Source of the DNA: Fimbriimonas sp.
GTDB lineage: Bacteria > Armatimonadota > Fimbriimonadia > Fimbriimonadales > Fimbriimonadaceae
Length of the DNA: 64,000 bases
Direction of reading: 5' to 3'
Assembly: GCA_031292555.1 (NCBI GenBank)
Contig: JARLGV010000098.1
Span: forward strand, 1-64,000
A program made the translations under genes and the position numbers. The notes beneath the pieces are model-generated. The model searched no databases. It worked only from the letters and a program-made list of their open reading frames with translations, and was not told where the DNA came from. Shown in pieces: positions 21,679 to 32,388 of this stretch (positions are counted from its first letter, which is position 1; each line of letters starts with the position of its first letter).

Positions 21679-24162
21679 CTAGAACTTACAGAACGCAGAA
21701 AGAAGGATAGTGCGGCCGATCTGAAATCGAGTGCCACTGAATCCAGATTGGAAGTTGATGACGGTGCGAGTATCGAAGAGGTTCGTTACGTCGAGCCCTA
21801 ATCCCCCTTTTCCACCGAATAGGTGGTCTCCGGTCGACATGTGGAGGTCCATTTGAGTTCGCGGTGTACGGTCGGTACTTGGCGGGACGGTGCTGCTTGC
21901 GAGACCGCTGCCGTAGTCGAATGTCGCTGCCATGGAGGCTCCGTTCTTCCATGAATACGCGAGTCCGGTTCCGAGTGTCTCTCGCTGATCGTGGTCGTTA
22001 AATTCCGGAGCGGGGGCGCCGGTGTTGTCATTGCCACTCGGCATCGCGGCAGAATATGTGACGTTGACAAACGCGTCCCATCCAGTCCCACTGGGCGGAG
22101 AGATGTTGTATGAAAACTCAACACCATGGACCGCTCCGATCTGGAAGTTGACTCCAGAGTAGAGACCGATCTCGCTGCCCGGAATCAGAAGTCCGACGTC
22201 AACCTGATTTCGGATGTCCTTGTAATAGTAGCCGAGAGATAACGTTTGGCCATGCCCCAACCGATGCTCGATCGAAGCATCGTACTGGTCAAGAGTTTCC
22301 GGCTGAATTGGCTCGCCTACAATTGCACCTTGCGCTAGTGGCGGAGTGTTGAACAAATGGTCGTAAGACCAGCGAAGATCGTCTCTTGCAGTTAGCTTGT
22401 AACTGAAATTGGCACGGGGAGACAGGGCAAAAGTGTCGACGGGAGGCTGACCCAAGTTTTGGTCTTGGTTATACCAATCACCCCGGAAGCCGTAGTTCAC
22501 CGAGAAACGCTTGGAGATCTGCCACGTGTCTTGAACGTATGCGGACTTATAAGCTCCGTTCCGTTGGACGGCAAGAGTCGGATACACGTTTGATGACGCA
22601 ATGAACACCGGATTACCGTTTACGTCCTTCGCGCCAGTCAGTGCTCCAGGCGGACAAAGATTGGGGGCAACCGCATGAAGTTCGTCCAATGCAAGTTGGC
22701 TCGCCGCCTGAATGTTGTACGACTCGTGCCCCGTTTGCGCGTCCAACAGGAAACCAGCCTTGATGCGGTGGCTTCCGCGCGTCGCCGAATAACTTCCTTC
22801 GCCTTGAAAGTGGTGGATATTGCGCGTCGCCTCAGGGTTGTATTCGATCGAGTTATCGATGTGCTGAGTCATTAAGGTGGTTGCATCGACCGTCGGGTTA
22901 TTGTTGTCGACCGCCTGCCCCGAGTGCAGTGCGGTTAGGGCGAACTGCATCGAATCGGTACTGCTGATGTGCCGGGCATATTGAAGCGTCGCAAATTCAC
23001 TAACTTCGTGCTGGTTGATATCCATCCCGTCGGCCTGCTGGGAAGCAAGCTTCTCGGGCGCCGAACCGAGCAGACCGGAGTTTGAGCTGTTCAGCCCGGC
23101 CTCAGTTCCATCGGCATTGCGCAGTCCGAGGAACCCATAACCCTGGCCGGCAGATGCAAACGAAGCTGGCAAGCCTGTCCGGTTGCCAATCTGTAACGCA
23201 TCTGGGTTGTTACTCACCGTTAACGTGAGATTGTCGATCGTGCTCAGGTTGTATTTGAGCTTTGCAAAGTAACTTTGGCTGCTCCCGGCGTTATGCGCTG
23301 TTTGGATATCAGGTTGTTGTGGTTCTAGGGCGTTTTTCGTGCTGGTCGCGCCGAAATCGATGACGTAGTTGAGCCTGGTACCTAACGGCCCAACTGAGGT
23401 TAGGTCTGAGTTCAGAGTGTCGTAGCTTCCGGACTGCATTGTGAATAGGCTGGCGGCTTTCTTTGCGCCAGGAACCGTTGTGATATTCAGGACTGCTGCA
23501 ACCTGACCTCCGAATTCCGGTGCAAACCCACCAGTTAGCATTTCAAGGCTGTCTATCGTCGAAGGGACGACAACCGAGCCCTGGCGCCCGGAGAGCGTAT
23601 CGGGCAGCGGGACGTTGTCAACGACGTACGTGATCTCGGTGTGTTCGCCGCGAATGTGCTGCTGCCCGGCCGAGTCCTCCGCTACTCCCTTCTGCCCCTT
23701 AGTGAGGCTCTTTGTGTCGCCAGCGGTCGAGTTTACAAATCGCTGGATATCTTCGTGGCTTCGAACCGTGCTTTGCGACTCGTGTACGGCTTGTCTCGCC
23801 GAAATTCTTGTCGCCGTGACCCGAATCGTGATCTCCTTAACAGGGCGGTCTTGCTCTTGAACCTGGTGCAAGACGAGGATCGAGCCGGCTGGAATCCTCA
23901 CCAGTTCTGCCGAATCGATATTCGCTACTAACGGTAGCTGGTGCATCGATTCCACGTCCAGCACTTGCGTCTGCCCACTATAGGAAGGGCTTGTCCGCAA
24001 CCGGGCGTATGTGCTGTTGCAGGATACAGTGACGACGCCGGGGACCGGATGTCCCGTCTTGGGGTCTACGACGATGAACCTGAGCCGCCCCGTGGTTCCC
24101 GCTAGCGCAAGCGGGCAGGCGACGATTCCAAGCGCAAGTGCTAATAGGCTGCGTGTGATCAT
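21679..24162 (-). CDS. TonB-dependent outer-membrane receptor 1
   Basis: The 827-residue product has a signal peptide, a carboxypeptidase-regulatory-like beta-sandwich domain (RLRFIVVDPKTGHPVPGVVTV), a plug domain (about residues 120-230, with GEHTEITYVVDNVPLPDTLSGR and LTGGFAPEFGGQVAAVLNI), and a long beta-barrel ending in an aromatic residue (SAFCKF), as outer-membrane barrels do. Its start overlaps the tonB stop by 4 nt, so it closes the exbB-exbD-tonB-receptor operon. The regulator and operator context suggests uptake of a metal or metal complex. It is similar in architecture to receptor 2 at 29311-31797. Confidence 0.92.
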   Translation of the reverse strand: MITRSLLALALGIVACPLALAGTTGRLRFIVVDPKTGHPVPGVVTVSCNSTYARLRTSPSYSGQTQVLDVESMHQLPLVANIDSAELVRIPAGSILVLHQVQEQDRPVKEITIRVTATRISARQAVHESQSTVRSHEDIQRFVNSTAGDTKSLTKGQKGVAEDSAGQQHIRGEHTEITYVVDNVPLPDTLSGRQGSVVVPSTIDSLEMLTGGFAPEFGGQVAAVLNITTVPGAKKAASLFTMQSGSYDTLNSDLTSVGPLGTRLNYVIDFGATSTKNALEPQQPDIQTAHNAGSSQSYFAKLKYNLSTIDNLTLTVSNNPDALQIGNRTGLPASFASAGQGYGFLGLRNADGTEAGLNSSNSGLLGSAPEKLASQQADGMDINQHEVSEFATLQYARHISSTDSMQFALTALHSGQAVDNNNPTVDATTLMTQHIDNSIEYNPEATRNIHHFQGEGSYSATRGSHRIKAGFLLDAQTGHESYNIQAASQLALDELHAVAPNLCPPGALTGAKDVNGNPVFIASSNVYPTLAVQRNGAYKSAYVQDTWQISKRFSVNYGFRGDWYNQDQNLGQPPVDTFALSPRANFSYKLTARDDLRWSYDHLFNTPPLAQGAIVGEPIQPETLDQYDASIEHRLGHGQTLSLGYYYKDIRNQVDVGLLIPGSEIGLYSGVNFQIGAVHGVEFSYNISPPSGTGWDAFVNVTYSAAMPSGNDNTGAPAPEFNDHDQRETLGTGLAYSWKNGASMAATFDYGSGLASSTVPPSTDRTPRTQMDLHMSTGDHLFGGKGGLGLDVTNLFDTRTVINFQSGFSGTRFQIGRTILLSAFCKF

Positions 24163-24953
24163 TCGACTCTAAACTCAATGGTCAATTTGACTTTGCTCTC
24201 AACTCCAGTTCCGTCAATGGTCGCGGGCTTGAACCGCCACTGTTTGGCGGTCTTCAGTGCAATATCATCCAATTCGGGGTTTCCCGTCGACTGCGTCATC
24301 TTCACGGTCGTCGGCTTGCCATCGGGACCGACCGTGAACATCGCTACGAAGTCCTTCTCAAGCGTTTCGTTCCTCAGATCGTCAGGGATGACAGGTTGCG
24401 GACAGTAGTCCTGCTGGGGCTCCGCATACACTGGAACGTGCTTCGGCGCCTCGGGTTGAACTACCTTTGGCGCCGTAGCCGGCGCGGAAGGTGGTGGCTC
24501 CGGAGTCTTTGCCTTGGGGATGGAAACCTCGGGGCTACTGCTTTCTGCCGCCTTTGTCCCGCCCGTTTCCGCCTTCGGAACGGGGACCTCTCCGACCTTG
24601 GTATTAGTGCCTTGCTCAATCGTGGGACCGTCTTCACTGCCATTGTCGTTTGGCGAGTTAACGGCAACGACCTTTTGCCGGTTTGGGTTCACCTTGGCCG
24701 GTCCGCCCCGCTTGACAATCGCCTTGCCCTGAGATTTGGCGGTCTTGGGCTTCGACTTGTGCTCCTTCGTTTGTTCCTTCTCTTTTTCCTGCTTGGGCAA
24801 GGAAATGAGTGTCACGCGAGCTTCGCCAAACCGCTGTTTGAGCTTATCGAAGGCGCCGAAGTGAGCAGCGATGGGTAGCGCAATCACGTGCAACAGCACT
24901 GTGACCCCAATAATCCTCATCAGCAGGGGGTTCTTCTTGCGACGGCGTGACAT
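24159..24953 (-). CDS. tonB: TonB energy transducer 1
   Basis: The 264-residue protein has an N-terminal membrane anchor (about residues 12-32), a long Lys/Pro-rich periplasmic linker, and a C-terminal TonB domain (VAMFTVGPDGKPTTVKMTQS ... DDIALKTAKQWRFKPATIDG ... VKLTIEFRVE). It transmits proton-motive-force energy from ExbB/ExbD to the outer-membrane receptor. It lies 3 nt downstream of exbD and overlaps the receptor gene, so it is dedicated to receptor 1. Confidence 0.93.
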   Translation of the reverse strand: MSRRRKKNPLLMRIIGVTVLLHVIALPIAAHFGAFDKLKQRFGEARVTLISLPKQEKEKEQTKEHKSKPKTAKSQGKAIVKRGGPAKVNPNRQKVVAVNSPNDNGSEDGPTIEQGTNTKVGEVPVPKAETGGTKAAESSSPEVSIPKAKTPEPPPSAPATAPKVVQPEAPKHVPVYAEPQQDYCPQPVIPDDLRNETLEKDFVAMFTVGPDGKPTTVKMTQSTGNPELDDIALKTAKQWRFKPATIDGTGVESKVKLTIEFRVE

Positions 24954-25373: not shown

Positions 25374-25994
25374 TTAGTCCAGGCGTCCTGTCAAGTAATT
25401 GACGAGTTCAGCGCCGTAGTACTCCATGTCTTCAACTTGCTTTCGCACTACGTTGGCATAATAGTTGTAGATGATGAAGCCGACCACGGCGAGCGTAATG
25501 CCGGTAGCAGTCGAGATAAGGGCCTCCGAAATGCCGCCAAGAATCTGAGTTGGATTGGAAAGCCCTTGTTGGGACGCCGCCCGAAATGACGTGATCATTC
25601 CCGCGATCGTTCCGAGTAGACCCAGGAGCGGAGCTATGTTAACGATCGTTTTGACGATGGGGAGATTCGCCTCCAGGGCAGGCGTTTCATTGGCAGCTTC
25701 TTGCTCCATCGCCATCTCGATCGCATCGGCTTGCCTGCTGGCATTTTTCAGCCCCCGAACGAACATGCGCCCAATAGGTCCTCCAAACTCCTGTGCTTTC
25801 GTGATGGCTGCCGCCGCGTCTCCACCCCGTGAAAACAGCTTCTTGACTTCTTCAAGAAGCTCATCGCCATCAACTGACGCCTTGCGCAAGACGAAAGCCC
25901 GCTCGATCGCCAAAGAGACAAGAATGATCGAACACAGAATCAGCGGATACATCATCACTCCGCCGTTCTGAATGAATTTGCCGACTTCGTTCAA
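25374..25994 (-). CDS. exbB: ExbB proton-channel subunit 1
   Basis: The 206-residue MotA/TolQ/ExbB-family protein has three membrane helices, an N-terminal one (MMYPLILCSIILVSLAIERAF) and two in the conserved core (IAPLLGLLGTIAGMITSFRA; TATGITLAVVGFIIYNYY). It leads the exbB-exbD-tonB-receptor operon. A TACC-N5-GGGGTA operator at 26037-26051 lies 42 nt upstream, overlapping a plausible minus-strand -10 (TAGTCT). Confidence 0.95.
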   Translation of the reverse strand: MNEVGKFIQNGGVMMYPLILCSIILVSLAIERAFVLRKASVDGDELLEEVKKLFSRGGDAAAAITKAQEFGGPIGRMFVRGLKNASRQADAIEMAMEQEAANETPALEANLPIVKTIVNIAPLLGLLGTIAGMITSFRAASQQGLSNPTQILGGISEALISTATGITLAVVGFIIYNYYANVVRKQVEDMEYYGAELVNYLTGRLD

Positions 25995-26036
25995 TAGCGT
26001 GTGCTCCTGGGAAAACTGCTCATGAGGGGAAAAGAC

Positions 26037-26051
26037 TACCCTACCGGGGTA
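26037..26051. promoter_or_regulatory. CsoR/RcnR-type operator, site 1 (exbB 1 promoter)
   Basis: TACC-CTACC-GGGGTA, a perfect match to the island consensus TACC-N5-GGGGTA. G-tract operators with TA-containing flanks are typical of the CsoR/RcnR regulator family. Confidence 0.7.
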
Positions 26052-26136
26052 ATCTGTGCAATCCTCACTGTGGTGTTTAAAAGAATTCTAAGAGACATGT
26101 TGCCCAACTCCACTTTCATCCTGAAAACGATATTGA

Positions 26137-26151
26137 TACCAGTAGGGGGTA
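26137..26151. promoter_or_regulatory. CsoR/RcnR-type operator, site 2 (ZIP promoter)
   Basis: TACC-AGTAG-GGGGTA, a perfect consensus match exactly 100 bp from site 1 and 33 nt before the ZIP gene. A second GGGGTA follows at 26152-26157. Confidence 0.7.
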
Positions 26152-26184
26152 GGGGTAAGATGAATTCGAATTGAGTGCTGCACG

Positions 26185-26955
26185 TTGAACACCCTAATCT
26201 TGTTCGGACTCGTAGTGTCGATTTTGATCGCCATCACCGGTGGTGTCTTTGGCGTCCTATTGAGTTCAGTTGCCCCACGTCGTTTGGAGGCTCTCGTGCT
26301 CATGGCTACCGGCGCACTTCTCGGCGTGACGGCCTTTGACATCCTCCCCGAGGCAAAACTGGACTTATCGTGGGTTAGATTCTTGGCCTCACTAGGATTC
26401 GGCTATTTCTTTATGTGGATCGTAGGAAAGCGAATCTTCCACGTTTGTCCGTCGTGTGCGATCGCCCATCTTGATCTTAGTACGGCACTGCAAGGCAAGC
26501 GTGCGATCATGATGCTCGGGATTGCGTTAGGAATTCACTGCGCGATGGACGGACTTGCCATCGTTGCAGGGGGTGAGCTGCCGGTCCGTGTCGGACTTGG
26601 CGTGCTCGTTGGTGTCGGTCTTCATAAACTACCAGAGGGACTTGCTCTTGCATTGCTGCTTCTCGGGGCGGGATTGACTAAACGTGAAGCACTTCAACGG
26701 GTAATTTCGATCGAGTCCCTAACCTCGGTGGGAGGGATTGCTGGCATCGCCTTTGGCCAACACACGAATCGAACCCTCATTGGAATGGTCTTCTCCATGA
26801 TCGGAGGGGGATTCCTGTATCTGGTAATCAACTCACTCTATGGCGCATTTCGCCACAAAATGGCGCTCTCCATTCACGAAGCTATCGTCATTACAGGAAC
26901 AAGCTTCGCGTTTACAGGCGCCTTCCTTTGGATCGTAAGTCGCGGGTTCCATTAG
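26185..26955 (+). CDS. ZIP-family metal transporter
   Basis: The 256-residue membrane protein has about seven to eight helices. Metal-site motifs of the ZIP family are clear: IHCAMDGLAIVAGGE (helix IV) and GLHKLPEGLALAL (helix V). A CPSC motif (VCPSCAIAH) lies in the loop between helices III and IV, where many ZIP proteins carry a metal-binding cluster. ZIP proteins import zinc, iron or manganese into the cytoplasm. The start codon at 26185 is TTG. The gene is divergent from the TonB operon and preceded by operator site 2, so uptake and TonB transport appear co-regulated. Confidence 0.9.
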   Translation: MNTLILFGLVVSILIAITGGVFGVLLSSVAPRRLEALVLMATGALLGVTAFDILPEAKLDLSWVRFLASLGFGYFFMWIVGKRIFHVCPSCAIAHLDLSTALQGKRAIMMLGIALGIHCAMDGLAIVAGGELPVRVGLGVLVGVGLHKLPEGLALALLLLGAGLTKREALQRVISIESLTSVGGIAGIAFGQHTNRTLIGMVFSMIGGGFLYLVINSLYGAFRHKMALSIHEAIVITGTSFAFTGAFLWIVSRGFH

Positions 26956-26993
26956 CCGATCAAAGCCCTGCTCGGCAATGTAGGCACCTGAAC

Positions 26994-27251
26994 CTAATGC
27001 ACAAGACGGCGGGTCAGGGCAAGCATATCGTCAAATGATACATCCGGACCAACTCCGCTTTCGGAGAGATAGCGTGCCAAGACTCGGGCTGCATACTGAT
27101 CGAGAGCAGATCGTATCGCACTAACCTGTTCGAGGCACTCTTGCGGCAGACGCTCTTCATCTTGCATGCGCCGAAGTCCTGCCAACTGACCCTCGATCTT
27201 GGCGAGCCGGTTGCGCATCTCATCTTTCTGAACGTAGGGTCTTTGCGCCAT
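26994..27251 (-). CDS. CsoR/RcnR-family regulator with missing metal ligands
   Basis: The 85-residue all-helical protein has the DUF156/CsoR core (RLAKIEGQLAGLRRM ... QVSAIRSALDQYAARVLARYL). Aligned with the second regulator at 32101, the usual Cys-His-Cys metal positions are Pro36, Tyr61 and Ser65; a single Cys39 sits three residues later than normal. It may respond to another signal or bind DNA constitutively. An operator of the island consensus lies 5 nt before its start codon, so it is probably controlled with the island or by itself. It is convergent with the ZIP gene. Confidence 0.85.
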   Translation of the reverse strand: MAQRPYVQKDEMRNRLAKIEGQLAGLRRMQDEERLPQECLEQVSAIRSALDQYAARVLARYLSESGVGPDVSFDDMLALTRRLVH

Positions 27252-27256
27252 AGAAA

Positions 27257-27271
27257 TACCTTGCGGGGGTA
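27257..27271. promoter_or_regulatory. CsoR/RcnR-type operator, site 3 (first regulator gene)
   Basis: TACC-TTGCG-GGGGTA, a perfect consensus match. It ends 5 nt from the regulator's ATG at 27251, a position suited to blocking transcription or initiation directly. Confidence 0.7.
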
Positions 27272-27305
27272 TCGTACAAGTCTGGGCTAATAGAATACAG
27301 AAAAT

Positions 27306-28148
27306 CTACTCGATTGTAAAGTTGAATCGGAACTGTTGGACTGAATCAACTGACTCTCCGTCTTTGAGGGCTGGCTTCCAGGACCACTTATTGAGGGTGT
27401 CAAGCACGAGCCTATCCACATCGACGTTTCCGCTCGAAGTGCGAAGGACTACTTTGAACTTGCCGTCTGCATTGATCTCTACCCGAACTCGGACGAAGCT
27501 CTTGAAGCTCTGAGACTTGAGATTCTCTGGAATCTCAACTGCTTCCTGGTGGTCCGGTTTGGCTTCACGCGATTCCCCCTTTGGTTTCACTGGGGGAGGA
27601 GAGGGGGGCGGTTGGGGAGGAGTCGTCGGTGGCGCTTCCTTCTTCGTCTCGGGCGGGGGGGCAACGGTTGGAGGAGGGTTAACAACCGCCTTCGAGGTAT
27701 CAGGGGGAGGAGGAGTGGTTGGCGGCGGTGTTGGCGGGGTGACCGTGGCGTTGCCTGTCCCCTGCTTATCGATCGGAATTCCCACATGGGCATTTCCCCC
27801 GGCCGGAACGACGAAATCGTCGTGGGAGGGAGTGGTGCTCGCCGCCTTCGACGCCATGATGTGGCTGTGCGCCGTTTCGGTTGGAGGCGGCTGAATGTGC
27901 GTCTTGGGTTCCTCCTTTCTGCGCGGTGGCGGGGGAATCGGCCTTAGTTGCTTGAAGACAGGCTTCGCCGATGGTTCCGCCTTGTCGACAACGACACGGT
28001 CGAATACCAACTCGGGTGGCGCCGTAAAGTGAACGGGCTGGTTCGCGCCCATGCCTAGTGCGCACCACAGAATGGCATTCGCCCCGATTGAACCCAGCAT
28101 CGCGACTGAGATCTTCCTGTCTAGATTGCCAGCCTCAATGGAATTCAT
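27306..28148 (-). CDS. tonB: TonB energy transducer 2
   Basis: The 280-residue protein has a membrane anchor (ISVAMLGSIGANAILWCALG), a very Pro-rich linker (runs of Pro/Thr around residues 125-190), and a C-terminal TonB domain (FVRVRVEINADGKFKVVLRT ... VLDTLNKWSWKPALKDG). The ATG at 28148 is preferred because it follows the exbD stop by one base; an ATG at 28169 would overlap exbD. It belongs to the second TonB system. Like TonB 1, it probably serves the receptor regulated by the same operator. Confidence 0.9.
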   Translation of the reverse strand: MNSIEAGNLDRKISVAMLGSIGANAILWCALGMGANQPVHFTAPPELVFDRVVVDKAEPSAKPVFKQLRPIPPPPRRKEEPKTHIQPPPTETAHSHIMASKAASTTPSHDDFVVPAGGNAHVGIPIDKQGTGNATVTPPTPPPTTPPPPDTSKAVVNPPPTVAPPPETKKEAPPTTPPQPPPSPPPVKPKGESREAKPDHQEAVEIPENLKSQSFKSFVRVRVEINADGKFKVVLRTSSGNVDVDRLVLDTLNKWSWKPALKDGESVDSVQQFRFNFTIE

Positions 28149-28149
28149 C

Positions 28150-28584
28150 TTAGGTTTTCCCTTTGACATCCTGGGGCGACGTGGCCAGCGGGAAGTGAGT
28201 GACGCCTACGCCTCGCGCTTGGTCGATGCAGCGAATCACAAGGCCATAGGGAACACCTTCGTCAGCATTGATCACAACTGATGCTTCGCTCAAATCGGCT
28301 TTTGGGCCGCCGGCTAACGTGAGCAGTTCGTTGCCAACATCATCGGGAGAAACCGGTGTTTTGTTAACGAAGACGTTGCCAGACTTGTCCACGGAAACCG
28401 TGAAGTCAAGCTTGTTCTGCTTAAGCGAGTTGGAACTCTTTGGTAAATTGACGGGCATTCCCATGAGGTTCGTCAGTGACAGCGAAGAGAGCATGAAGAA
28501 GACGAGCAAGAAGAACATCGTGTCGATCATCGGAATGATCTCGATTTTCGTGCGCTTCAAAGCTCGCCGCGACTTGAATGTCAT
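28150..28584 (-). CDS. exbD: ExbD proton-channel subunit 2
   Basis: The 144-residue ExbD has the membrane-helix Asp in IIPMIDTMFFLLVFFMLSS and a periplasmic domain ending VIRCIDQARGVGVTHF. Its ATG overlaps the exbB 2 stop (ATGA), so the genes are translationally coupled. Confidence 0.95.
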   Translation of the reverse strand: MTFKSRRALKRTKIEIIPMIDTMFFLLVFFMLSSLSLTNLMGMPVNLPKSSNSLKQNKLDFTVSVDKSGNVFVNKTPVSPDDVGNELLTLAGGPKADLSEASVVINADEGVPYGLVIRCIDQARGVGVTHFPLATSPQDVKGKT

Positions 28585-29237
28585 GCAGCACCAGCCTTCA
28601 CTCGGTTAGGGCGTTCATCGTGTTGGATCTGACGAAGCTCGTTGATCAGCTTGGTGGAAGCCTGTTCGGTTTCAATAGTGACCTTTCGTTGTCGCGCGCT
28701 GAAGTAGTTGTAAGCGACAAAGCAGATGACGGCGACGGTCAAACCAGTCGCAGTCGCATAGAGCGCCTCGCCAACGCCGGACAGGATGGAGTCTCGGCTG
28801 CCTTGGTTCTTCGAGACAGCGATCGCTTGAAACGTCCCAATCATCCCAAAGAGGGTCCCGAGCAGTCCGAGCAGTGGGGAAATCGTGGTCGTCGTGTCGA
28901 GGATTGGCAGGAATTTCTCGATTTGAATGAAGTACTCCTCTCCAACCTCCTGAACGTTCCGCTCAATGTCCTCGACGGGTAGGTCCCGGTGGCCAAGAAC
29001 AGCGGCCAAGCAAGCGGACACCGGACCTGGTTGTGCCTGGCAAAGCGACAATGCGTCTTCGAATTCGTTCTGCCGGCACTTTGCTATGACGCGGCTCAAA
29101 AGCCCTGGAGCATCGTTTGCAATCGTACGATAGGTAATCAGCCTCTCGATGATCACACCGATCGCTACGAGGGACAGGGCCAAGAGGGGATACATGACCC
29201 ATCCTCCTGCTGAGAAGAAGTGCAATAAACTTGTCAT
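28581..29237 (-). CDS. exbB: ExbB proton-channel subunit 2
   Basis: The 218-residue MotA/TolQ/ExbB-family protein has an N-terminal helix (WVMYPLLALSLVAIGVIIER) and the core pair (ISPLLGLLGTLFGMIGTFQA; ATGLTVAVICFVAYNYF). It leads the exbB-exbD-tonB operon of the second system. Unlike system 1, the receptor is transcribed from its own promoter. Operator site 4 lies 27 nt upstream, overlapping a TATAGT box. Confidence 0.95.
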   Translation of the reverse strand: MTSLLHFFSAGGWVMYPLLALSLVAIGVIIERLITYRTIANDAPGLLSRVIAKCRQNEFEDALSLCQAQPGPVSACLAAVLGHRDLPVEDIERNVQEVGEEYFIQIEKFLPILDTTTTISPLLGLLGTLFGMIGTFQAIAVSKNQGSRDSILSGVGEALYATATGLTVAVICFVAYNYFSARQRKVTIETEQASTKLINELRQIQHDERPNRVKAGAA

Positions 29238-29264
29238 CCGTTCAACCTTGGAGATCGTACACTA

Positions 29265-29279
29265 TACCCCGGAACGGTA
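29265..29279. promoter_or_regulatory. CsoR/RcnR-type operator, site 4 (exbB 2 promoter)
   Basis: Read on the minus strand this is TACC-GTTCC-GGGGTA, a perfect consensus match. Its last two bases overlap a TATAGT -10 candidate. Confidence 0.7.
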
Positions 29280-29310
29280 TCTACGCTCATTTCCGGGGCG
29301 TTGTTCCCAC

Positions 29311-31797
29311 CTAGAGCTTGCCTTGGCAGCTCAACATGATCGTTCGGCCCATTTGGAAACGTGTGCCGCTGAAGCCTGAATTGAAGTTCAGGAGCGCACG
29401 TTCATCGAACAGGTTCTGAACCTCAAACACTAGGCTGTTGCCACGCCCAATGAAATTCGGGGCCGACGCCAACCTGAAGTTAAGTTCGTTGTGAGCATGT
29501 CGAGAACCAAATTCATCGCCGGTTGACGCCAAGGATAGAACGCTCGATGCCACTCCGCTTCCATAGTTATCGACAAGTCCGATTTGAGCACCGCTCTTGA
29601 ACGTGTAATTCGTTCCGACGGAGACCGTGTGCAGCTGGTCGTGGTCGTTGTAGTCATTTCCATTTCCCTGCGGTTTGGCGGTCGAGTTGGCGTAAGAGGC
29701 GTACGCGCTCAAGCCGAAGGGATGAACCGGAAACAGGTTGTACGAAACTTCAAATCCTCTGACATAGTCTTTGGGGATGGAGTCAGTGACGAAAGCGCCA
29801 ATCTGCGTTCCGGCAACGAGAAGACCGGTATCTAGCTGGTTTGTGATTTCCTTCAAGTAGTAACGAACTTTTAGGCTTTCACCTGGACCCGTTTGCTTTT
29901 CGATACTTGTATCGAATTGGTCAATGACTTCGGGTGGCACTACCGCGCCGGGAACTGCCCCCTGAGCGCTTGGTGGGATGATCATCAGCTTGTTGTATGA
30001 GGCTCTGGCGACTGTCCTTGACGGAAGTTCGTATGCGAAGTTGACTCGCGGCTCAACCATATTGAGACCGCTGGTCGCAGAGACTCCAGCACCTCCATTC
30101 TGTGCTGTCGCTTGATCCTGCGAAAACTCGTCGAGCCTTAGGCCGTAGTTAGCGGTAAGACGCTTGTCGACATGCCAAGTGTCTTGAACATATCCAGCGT
30201 TGTACCAGCCGTCACGGCTAACCGTGACAACACTGGATACTCCATTCACAGGGGCAAATTGCTGCAGTCCGTTGTTGGGATCGTTTAGGAAATTCAGCGC
30301 TGCAATGCTGCCTGGCGTGAGTTGGTAGCTTTCAAGTCCGGTTTGGCGGTCGAACGAAAACCCTGCTTTCAGTGTATGGGCGCCAAGAGAACTGGTGATG
30401 CTTCCCTCAGCTTCTGCGTCGCGTGCGTTTCGGATAAGTGTCGGGTTGAACTCGATCGAATTGTCCTGCGGCAGGTTGTTGAGGTCGATCGCCGGGTTGT
30501 GGTTCAGAATGTCCAGACCATTGTGCGTTAGGCCCAAGGACATTCTTGCCTGGGTATGAGAGTCGACCGTATGCAAGAAATTGAGAACGCCAAACTCGTT
30601 ATGGTCCTGCTGGTAGTCATCTTGCCCGGCCGCCTGCTGCGACGGGAGACCTGAACTTGCCGGATCGAGCCCTAGGAATCCATATCCCTGCCCGTAGGGC
30701 GTGTAAAAGCTGGATAGTCCCGTGCGGTTGGCAATTTCAACCGTGCCGGGGTTGTCGCTCAGAGTCAAGCTGAGATTGTCGTTGTCGGATAGGCGCCAAC
30801 CTAGGTTGGCAAACATAATGTACGACTGACCGGCATTGTGGGCGATTTGGTCGTCCGGCTGCGGCGATTCCTGCGCGTTGTTGGTTTGACGATCATCGAA
30901 GCTCAGCAAGTAGCTAAACGACCTTGCCCTTCGCCCCGAGTCGTTAGGTGCGCCGTATTCCTTGCCGAATTGCCCACCGGCGGTTAGCCCGAGCTCGTTA
31001 GTTTGCCAAGAACCGGTACTTGCCGTGAATGCCAAGAACGGATCGATAGTTCCTGACCTGAGCTGTATGTTTAGGATGGCTGCAGTCTCACGTCCATACT
31101 CAGGGGCAAATGAACCCGTCAGTATTTCTGCATTCTGAACGGTAGTGGGGCTGAGGATTTGACCGAACCTGCCTTGGAAGGCCCCGGGAAGTTGAAAGCC
31201 GTTCAGGTAGATCGAAGTCGACGAGTGCTCGCCTTCAGGGTGAAGCTGACCAACGGAGTCGGAAACCATGCCGGGAGCGGTCTGAATGAGCGACTTTAGG
31301 CTCTGGTTATTGCTCGGGGCGACGGGCATCACCTTCATTGCCGCAACGTCTCGCAGAGTTCCCACATTCGGGTTGTTTGGGCGAGTAACATTCACTGAGC
31401 CTTTCACTGTGATCACCTTTTCCTTGAGCGGCTCCATCAGGACCTCGACAGGAGTGATCACGTCAGCCACAACGGTTACGGTTCGCGTGTCGATATCGAA
31501 AGAGTCTGAGGAGACTTTGATGGTCCACGCGTGGTTCAGAAGGAGTCCGGAGGTTGCGACACCTTTAAGGTCCGAGGAGAGGGTGACTGGCGGGCTGACG
31601 TTTGTTGGGTCCGAGATGACAATTTTGGCGCCCGCGATTCCGGTGTCATCGTCGGCGTTCTTGACCGTGAATTGAAGTCTGCCGACGACATCGGCAAAGG
31701 CCTGCGAACCAACAAAGAGCACGAGACCCAGAACCATCATGATTCTTGGCCCCCTCGAACGATAAAAGCGTATGTTTTGAAGCATGCTGTTCTCCAT
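29311..31797 (-). CDS. TonB-dependent outer-membrane receptor 2
   Basis: The 828-residue receptor has a signal peptide (VLGLVLFVGSQAFA), a carboxypeptidase-regulatory-like domain (AGAKIVISDPTNVSPPVTL), a plug (about residues 140-250, including GEHSSTSIYLNGFQLPGAF and LTGSFAPEYGRETAAILNI) and a barrel. The plug and barrel blocks resemble receptor 1 closely (GQGYGFLGL, QTGHESY versus QTGLESY, FSGTRFQMGRTI versus FSGTRFQIGRTI), so the two are paralogues. It ends LSCQGKL, without the terminal aromatic residue usual in barrels. An internal ATG at 31785 is an alternative start. Confidence 0.92.
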   Translation of the reverse strand: MENSMLQNIRFYRSRGPRIMMVLGLVLFVGSQAFADVVGRLQFTVKNADDDTGIAGAKIVISDPTNVSPPVTLSSDLKGVATSGLLLNHAWTIKVSSDSFDIDTRTVTVVADVITPVEVLMEPLKEKVITVKGSVNVTRPNNPNVGTLRDVAAMKVMPVAPSNNQSLKSLIQTAPGMVSDSVGQLHPEGEHSSTSIYLNGFQLPGAFQGRFGQILSPTTVQNAEILTGSFAPEYGRETAAILNIQLRSGTIDPFLAFTASTGSWQTNELGLTAGGQFGKEYGAPNDSGRRARSFSYLLSFDDRQTNNAQESPQPDDQIAHNAGQSYIMFANLGWRLSDNDNLSLTLSDNPGTVEIANRTGLSSFYTPYGQGYGFLGLDPASSGLPSQQAAGQDDYQQDHNEFGVLNFLHTVDSHTQARMSLGLTHNGLDILNHNPAIDLNNLPQDNSIEFNPTLIRNARDAEAEGSITSSLGAHTLKAGFSFDRQTGLESYQLTPGSIAALNFLNDPNNGLQQFAPVNGVSSVVTVSRDGWYNAGYVQDTWHVDKRLTANYGLRLDEFSQDQATAQNGGAGVSATSGLNMVEPRVNFAYELPSRTVARASYNKLMIIPPSAQGAVPGAVVPPEVIDQFDTSIEKQTGPGESLKVRYYLKEITNQLDTGLLVAGTQIGAFVTDSIPKDYVRGFEVSYNLFPVHPFGLSAYASYANSTAKPQGNGNDYNDHDQLHTVSVGTNYTFKSGAQIGLVDNYGSGVASSVLSLASTGDEFGSRHAHNELNFRLASAPNFIGRGNSLVFEVQNLFDERALLNFNSGFSGTRFQMGRTIMLSCQGKL

Positions 31798-31830
31798 GGG
31801 ATAGGGGGGTACCGTATCAAGAATAGACTA

Positions 31831-31845
31831 TACACTACGGGGGTA
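31831..31845. promoter_or_regulatory. CsoR/RcnR-type operator, site 5 (receptor 2 promoter)
   Basis: TACA-CTACG-GGGGTA, one mismatch from the consensus. It overlaps a minus-strand TATAGT, the same geometry as at site 4. Confidence 0.65.
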
Positions 31846-32071
31846 GAGAATATGAAGTGAGGCACGGGCGGAGTTCGCAGACAGATAGGTCATGAACTTC
31901 GACGAATTACCGGAATGTGTGGCGGCCGGAGATCGTCATCGAGGCGGCATGATGCCAATTTGACGTTGTGGAATCAACCTATGCATACGATCGGCCTGGA
32001 AAATGGGCACGACATTGTGTTTGCCCGTGTCACCGACTTGTATGTCAACGTCTAGAATACTAGTGGCTATC

Positions 32072-32086
32072 TACCCCCTGGGTGTA
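32072..32086. promoter_or_regulatory. CsoR/RcnR-type operator, site 6 (second regulator gene)
   Basis: Read on the minus strand TACA-CCCAG-GGGGTA, one mismatch from the consensus. It lies 14 nt before the regulator's ATG, consistent with autoregulation. Confidence 0.65.
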
Positions 32087-32100
32087 GATGCACATGAATC

Positions 32101-32388
32101 ATGGACCATCGCCTCGCTAAGGATGCAAAACTTCGGTTGGCCAGAATCGCGGGCCAAGTCGGCGGACTCGAAAAGATGATCGAGTCGGACAGATATTGTG
32201 TCGACATCCTGACCCAGGTCGCGGCGGTCCGATCTGCCGTAAACCAGCTTGGAGTAATCATGCTTTCCGCGCACCTTGAGCGATGCGTAAAGCCTGATGG
32301 CGCAGCGTGTTCCGACAGACCTTTGACATTGGACGAGGGCAAAGACGAAATCCAATCAACTTTGAAGCAGTTTCTCGACGTGGATTAG
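32101..32388 (+). CDS. CsoR-family metal-responsive repressor with complete Cys-His-Cys site
   Basis: The 95-residue protein has the CsoR fold core ([22 protein letters not shown] ... [17 protein letters not shown]). Cys33, His58 and Cys62 have the exact spacing (25 and 4) of the Cu(I) ligands Cys36-His61-Cys65 of characterised CsoR, with a Tyr just before the first Cys. His3 is also present, as in nickel/cobalt RcnR, so the metal cannot be fixed from sequence. It is the best candidate for the protein that reads the island's six operators. Confidence 0.92.

Follow-up and report, generated by a model that had tools for sequence, protein, structure and literature searches.

A probable CsoR-type operator shared by two TonB systems, a ZIP transporter and csoR genes in Fimbriimonas

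Introduction

In mer operons, import-type metal proteins (MerT/MerC) belong to a metal-induced circuit under MerR. The published type-2 CsoR operator, ATATACCCCTNAGGGGTATAT or TAC-N9-GTA with C/G tracts, is bound by the CsoR of Streptomyces lividans, whose targets are copZA and csoR (PMC3902906). A CsoR-family protein of Thermus thermophilus, TTHA1953, uses TAC/GTA repeats in an operator devoid of G tracts and targets sulfur oxidation genes (PMC10318464). Regulators of copper have also been linked to uptake: copper acquisition through Bacillus subtilis YcnJ is regulated by YcnK and CsoR, according to a secondary mention (cited in PMC3817396), and the TonB-dependent receptor OprC of Pseudomonas aeruginosa is under the copper-responsive CueR (PMC7558416). 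In this work, we analyze 64,000 nucleotides (nt) of Fimbriimonas sp. (contig JARLGV010000098.1, positions 1 to 64,000, assembly GCA_031292555.1), hereafter the window, in which an island of two TonB systems, a ZIP-family transporter and two CsoR genes carries a recurrent 15-nt element, TACC-N5-GGGGTA.

Results

An operator shared by six promoters

Our comparison of sequences suggests that the six sites listed below are very probably type-2 CsoR operators in a soft-metal homeostasis circuit, one that apo-CsoR would repress, ligand would release and import-type proteins would be part of.

26037..26051, minus strand: operator of exbB1-exbD1-tonB1-receptor 1; exact match, TACCCCGGTAGGGTA in gene direction; syntenic site in 9/10 family relatives
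26137..26151, plus strand: ZIP operator; exact match, TACCAGTAGGGGGTA
27257..27271, minus strand: CsoR1 operator, between tonB2 and CsoR1; exact match, TACCCCCGCAAGGTA in gene direction
29265..29279, minus strand: operator of exbB2-exbD2-tonB2; exact match; overlaps TATAGT
31831..31845, minus strand: receptor 2 operator; one mismatch to TACC-N5-GGGGTA, exact TAC-N9-GTA; overlaps TATAGT
32072..32086, plus strand: CsoR2 operator; one mismatch to TACC-N5-GGGGTA, exact TAC-N9-GTA

First, the window holds four exact copies of TACC-N5-GGGGTA against 0.03 expected from dinucleotide shuffles, and nine matches with one mismatch against 1.2 expected, some of these being the same site counted on both strands. 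Second, all six sites display the type-2 signature of a TAC-N9-GTA inverted repeat with C/G tracts, the repeat being exact in each (they make up six of the nine TAC-N9-GTA occurrences in the window), and none takes the type-1 RcnR form TACT-G6-N-AGTA. Third, the sites lie close to the annotated starts, with gaps of 5 nt for CsoR1, 14 for CsoR2, 27 for exbB2, 33 for both ZIP and receptor 2, and 42 for exbB1. The initial annotation of this DNA had reported the motif at these four exact and two one-mismatch positions, with one site per promoter within about 45 nt of the start and at least two sites overlapping a TATAGT box; a pattern scan of the window bore this out, the overlaps falling at exbB2 and receptor 2.

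Receptor 1, which closes the exbB1 operon, lacks a separate operator. The ZIP operator, as read by eye, sits between TTGATA (26133-26138) and TAAGAT (26156-26161), which are separated by a 17-nt spacer. The end of the CsoR1 operator is only 5 nt from the annotated ATG (window 27251-27271), implying that CsoR1 is either leaderless or has its true start further downstream. Between the receptor 2 operator and the start of that gene (window 31797-31830), there is a second G-tract pseudo-repeat, GATACGGTACCCCCCTATC, which is not of the TAC-N9-GTA form.

The genes of the island are as follows:

21679..24162, minus strand: TonB-dependent receptor 1; PF00593; many invariant His residues (15 homologs)
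24159..24953, minus strand: tonB1; PF03544
24957..25370, minus strand: exbD1; open reading frame with orthologs in syntenic operons
25374..25994, minus strand: exbB1; PF01618, 107.6 bits
26185..26955, plus strand: ZIP-family transporter of the CPxC / HxxxDG / HKxPEG subfamily; PF02535; alignment of 14
26994..27251, minus strand: CsoR1; PF02583, 52.9 bits; no canonical metal ligand
27306..28169, minus strand: tonB2; PF03544
28150..28584, minus strand: exbD2; PF02472
28581..29237, minus strand: exbB2; open reading frame with homologs
29311..31797, minus strand: TonB-dependent receptor 2; PF00593
32101..32388, plus strand: CsoR2; PF02583, 87.2 bits against a cut-off of 22.8; Y-C-H-C

Pfam profiles thereby confirm the gene identities given earlier, namely the ZIP (PF02535), two PF02583 proteins, ExbB/ExbD/TonB and two TonB-dependent receptors.

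Recurrence of the operator across the genome and its relatives

Searching the whole genome (6.46 Mb, 140 contigs) for TACC-N5-GGGGTA recovered eight exact sites, four of them in the island; for a genome this large, window shuffles predict about three by chance. Two of the sites beyond the island share the identical core TACCCAGTAGGGGTA and lie directly upstream of metal-related genes. The first precedes an operon on contig C76 coding, in order, for an outer-membrane efflux protein, an adaptor and a pump that TIGR00914 identifies as a CusA/CzcA heavy-metal RND protein (957 bits against a cut-off of 701). The second, on contig C135, precedes a gene for a MerC-family membrane protein that passes PF03203 (72.2 bits against a cut-off of 27.6) while scoring below the NCBI organomercurial MerC equivalog. 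The two remaining exact sites, in or beside unrelated genes, look like chance matches. Strand-matches with up to one mismatch number 95 in the genome against about 120 predicted from window shuffles; because this count is at chance level, one-mismatch sites outside the island carry little weight, and we set that scan aside as evidence. This genome also has a second MerC-family gene (C119:4560-4892, locus L294), which lacks the operator.

No HMA domain (PF00403) was detected in the genome at E 0.001, a search that leaves ATPases without this domain untested. The genome therefore lacks the customary CopZ and HMA-bearing CopA targets, and the circuit does not show the control of these proteins that marks a classic CsoR regulon.

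Next, we treated the relatives as a phylogenetic footprint, asking if a site lies upstream of the orthologous genes. Among ten related genomes of the family with the exbB1-exbD1-tonB1-receptor 1 operon, nine have a strict site 12-77 nt before exbB1, and the exception (G136) also lacks a CsoR. The strict site precedes the same operon in none of eight genomes from other families, and operons of the second receptor type (Rec2) outside the family have no site nearby. In G025, a relative of the second system, two TAC-N9-GTA sites precede the receptor. The MerC promoter has the operator in all 19 genomes of the genus that code for MerC, ten of which lay outside the set used for the pattern search: 16 sites are strict and three keep TAC-N9-GTA but depart from the strict pattern by a single letter. 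MerC genes with the operator also occur in other genera (G028 and G131), and MerC lacks the operator in G021, G024 and G046. Taken together, the conservation in relatives indicates a working operator, as far as genome comparison goes.

Beyond these genes, the same operator lies directly upstream of prepilin-like secreted proteins with an N_methyl motif in four relatives (L240:4101-4847, L228:3434-4198, L242:4688-5584, L231:6667-7410 and L174:8424-9143). In G006, it is found about 100 nt upstream of a small Cys-rich protein without a Pfam match (L234:4338-4739), whose gene comes just before those for an outer-membrane efflux protein and its adaptor. In families lacking the operator, a small secreted protein with a CxxC-type motif precedes the TonB operon (L155:6057-6443, L157:6058-6432, L160:10750-11112, L165:13957-14304, L169:9781-10203 and L077:10004-10399); four of these six proteins weakly resemble DUF2946, and in G080 the protein stands between the ZIP and the receptor.

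The CsoR proteins

The genome codes for three PF02583 proteins: CsoR1 and CsoR2 in the window and CsoR3 on contig C106. When aligned with the Mycobacterium tuberculosis CsoR (2HH7), CsoR2 has the Y-C-H-C pattern of Cu(I)-CsoR at the positions of Tyr35, Cys36, His61 and Cys65, and CsoR3 carries it as well. CsoR1, still a member of PF02583, has L-P-Y-S at these positions and no metal ligand. In a tree, CsoR3 groups closely with the genus-wide CsoR; the tree is built on few columns, with CsoR1 and CsoR2 on long branches, and only this grouping was used. A G-tract operator directly precedes csoR3 in about eight relatives, and csoR3 and exbB1 are divergently arranged in G008. Together with the sites at CsoR1 and CsoR2 in the window, these copies point to autoregulation.

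The assignment of the motif to the CsoR family is supported by the published type-2 signature, the autoregulatory copies at csoR genes and the conservation, all read from sequence. The initial annotation had named the CsoR at 32101 as the regulator; the family stands, and the choice of that protein is only partly supported, there being three CsoR genes, with the genus-wide one on C106. The ancestral regulator is most likely CsoR3, and CsoR2, perhaps with the ligand-less CsoR1, was most likely added in this species. CsoR3 would be the most economical regulator of the island, with CsoR2 a possible second.

Promoter architecture and a possible mechanism

The hexamer starting at the last TA of the operator matches TATAAT in at least five of six positions at 29 of 45 gene-oriented sites, and at none of them when the adjacent offsets are taken. 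For MerC, a -10-like hexamer is seen at the gene-side end of the operator in 17 of 18 cases and at the far end in one of 18. The operator end is thus usually fused to the -10 element, an arrangement that fits repression by occlusion.

We suggest that an apo CsoR-family repressor seated on these operators would keep RNA polymerase out, the last TA of the operator usually being the first TA of the -10 element. A ligand, most likely Cu(I) at the Tyr-Cys-His-Cys residues, would release CsoR, upon which the genes would come on; these ligand residues are the reason for Cu(I) as the first guess. The predicted regulon would comprise the two ExbB-ExbD-TonB-receptor systems, the ZIP, two CsoR genes, the CusA/CzcA-type efflux operon and the MerC-family gene.

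The ZIP transporter and receptor 1

The ZIP gene passes PF02535 with 41.6 bits (cut-off 35.1), below the ZupT equivalog cut-off, and the CPxC, HxxxDG and HKxPEG motifs are near-invariant in an alignment of 14 members of its subfamily. Receptor 1 has invariant His residues and no invariant Cys or Met among its 15 homologs. A sequence search for solved structures of the ZIP and of receptor 1 returned no match. The ZIP was considered as a means of recognizing the island in related genomes and dropped: the genus has no close ZIP, and the homologs, at 30-47%, are not part of this arrangement, G080 excepted. In several families of the phylum, the CPxC ZIP subfamily is found directly after genes for heavy-metal P-type ATPases (L068-L076: G228, G229, G223, G221, G224, G227, G222, G118 and G119), with profile tests of the ATPase type confined to L069, L072 and L076. 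This suggests that the CPxC ZIP and the heavy-metal P-type ATPase form a working pair. Because its subfamily adjoins such ATPases in other families, the ZIP is probably not simply a starvation importer.

Discussion

Several observations weigh against release of a CsoR repressor by Cu(I) as the explanation of these sites. The genome G144 (93% complete) has the site with no CsoR found, and no operator precedes csoR3 in the present genome. Further, the -10 at the operator end is poor for exbB1, ZIP, CsoR1 and CsoR2, four of the six promoters in the window, and no conserved -35 signal is seen at any spacing. Finally, the CsoR family senses several ligands, and the sensed metal cannot be told from the Cys/His ligand pattern alone (PMC4235346).

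The last point leads to the alternative that survives best, that the operator is of the CsoR family and the ligand is other than copper—persulfide as in CstR, nickel/cobalt/zinc, or mercury. We regard this as a realistic, if minority, possibility: genes of the MerC and MerT families are among the targets, core or occasional, and receptor 1 lacks invariant Cys/Met, unlike OprC with its Cu(I) CxxxM-HxM site (PMC7558416), but CsoR2 and CsoR3 both have, in Tyr-Cys-His-Cys, the first-shell ligands plus Tyr seen in Cu(I)-CsoR.

The initial annotation saw here a metal-acquisition regulon. In its pure form, uptake genes would be switched on under metal shortage, and TonB systems, ZIP and MerC are indeed import-type families. 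We consider this unlikely. CsoR is an apo-repressor that metal releases, and the genes would accordingly be repressed under shortage; further, the ZIP subfamily keeps company in other families with heavy-metal P-type ATPases. With the same operator at a heavy-metal efflux operon, and at the MerC gene, acquisition is no more than a proposed reading.

It is less probable still that a regulator of another family, such as a MerR-type protein bound in the promoter spacer, uses the motif, with the CsoR genes being mere neighbors. MerR activators, too, typically have a dyad beside the -10, MerR controls MerC in mer operons, and the site in G144 would be accounted for. Against this, no -35 lies 19-20 nt from the -10 around the dyad as in MerR-type promoters, no other regulator gene is seen by eye beside the sites, the operator precedes csoR itself in about eight relatives, and the sequence is that of the published CsoR operator (PMC3902906). 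Chance repeats, or a repeat family with no regulatory role, would agree with the one-mismatch counts of the genome but are negligible given the promoter position and the conservation, which already refutes them for the exact sites with formal probabilities <1e-27, indicative only as related genomes are treated as independent.

Within the preferred scheme of apo-CsoR repression and ligand release, we tentatively raise a broader idea, which we hold to be possible but doubtful. CsoR might govern how metal enters a diderm cell through both of its membranes, by way of a receptor with its own TonB energizer, MerC and ZIP, in a single metal-induced circuit with the RND pump and without HMA proteins; the ligand-less CsoR1 might act as a metal-blind co-repressor that mixes with CsoR2 or CsoR3 and in this way shifts the threshold.

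The predicted circuit would extend the CsoR regulon from efflux to a TonB-energized outer-membrane system, MerC and ZIP, in a group of bacteria where experimental genetics is scarce, and raises the question of why import-type genes should answer to a repressor that lets go upon metal binding. A signal open to testing would also become available for the MerC-family and receptor genes, which have no known substrate, and further members can be sought with the motif TACCC-N5-GGGTA joined to a TATAAT box.

Comparison with known systems

We found no description in open-access papers of this target set (two TonB systems, ZIP, MerC and RND pump) under CsoR; no such paper combines CsoR with the MerC domain, and none on CsoR with ExbB describes such regulation by its title or abstract. 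As the initial annotation had put it, a repressor family usually linked to efflux would here control uptake, an idea that has precedents in B. subtilis CsoR/YcnJ and P. aeruginosa CueR/OprC. As in the former, where CsoR touches a copper uptake gene, the present system would place import-type genes under a CsoR, but YcnJ is a Gram-positive inner-membrane protein of the CopCD-like kind, with neither TonB system nor ZIP. With OprC, it would share a copper-responsive regulator over a TonB-dependent receptor, whereas there the regulator is a MerR-family activator of a single receptor, and the section of that account used here describes no ExbB/ExbD/TonB operon or ZIP. The mer operons differ in regulator family, and no mer operon structure was seen here, mercury reductase not having been searched for. 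TTHA1953 likewise combines a CsoR-family protein, TAC/GTA repeats and a non-efflux regulon, but differs in its lack of operator G tracts and in its sulfur oxidation targets. The S. lividans CsoR resembles the present system in TAC-N9-GTA with C/G tracts, in autoregulation (here in several relatives) and in Cu(I)-type ligand residues; its targets are the textbook CopZ/CopA efflux proteins, whereas here they would be TonB systems, ZIP, MerC and an RND pump in a genome devoid of the HMA domain. The repressor family and the operator class are known; the target set is unusual.

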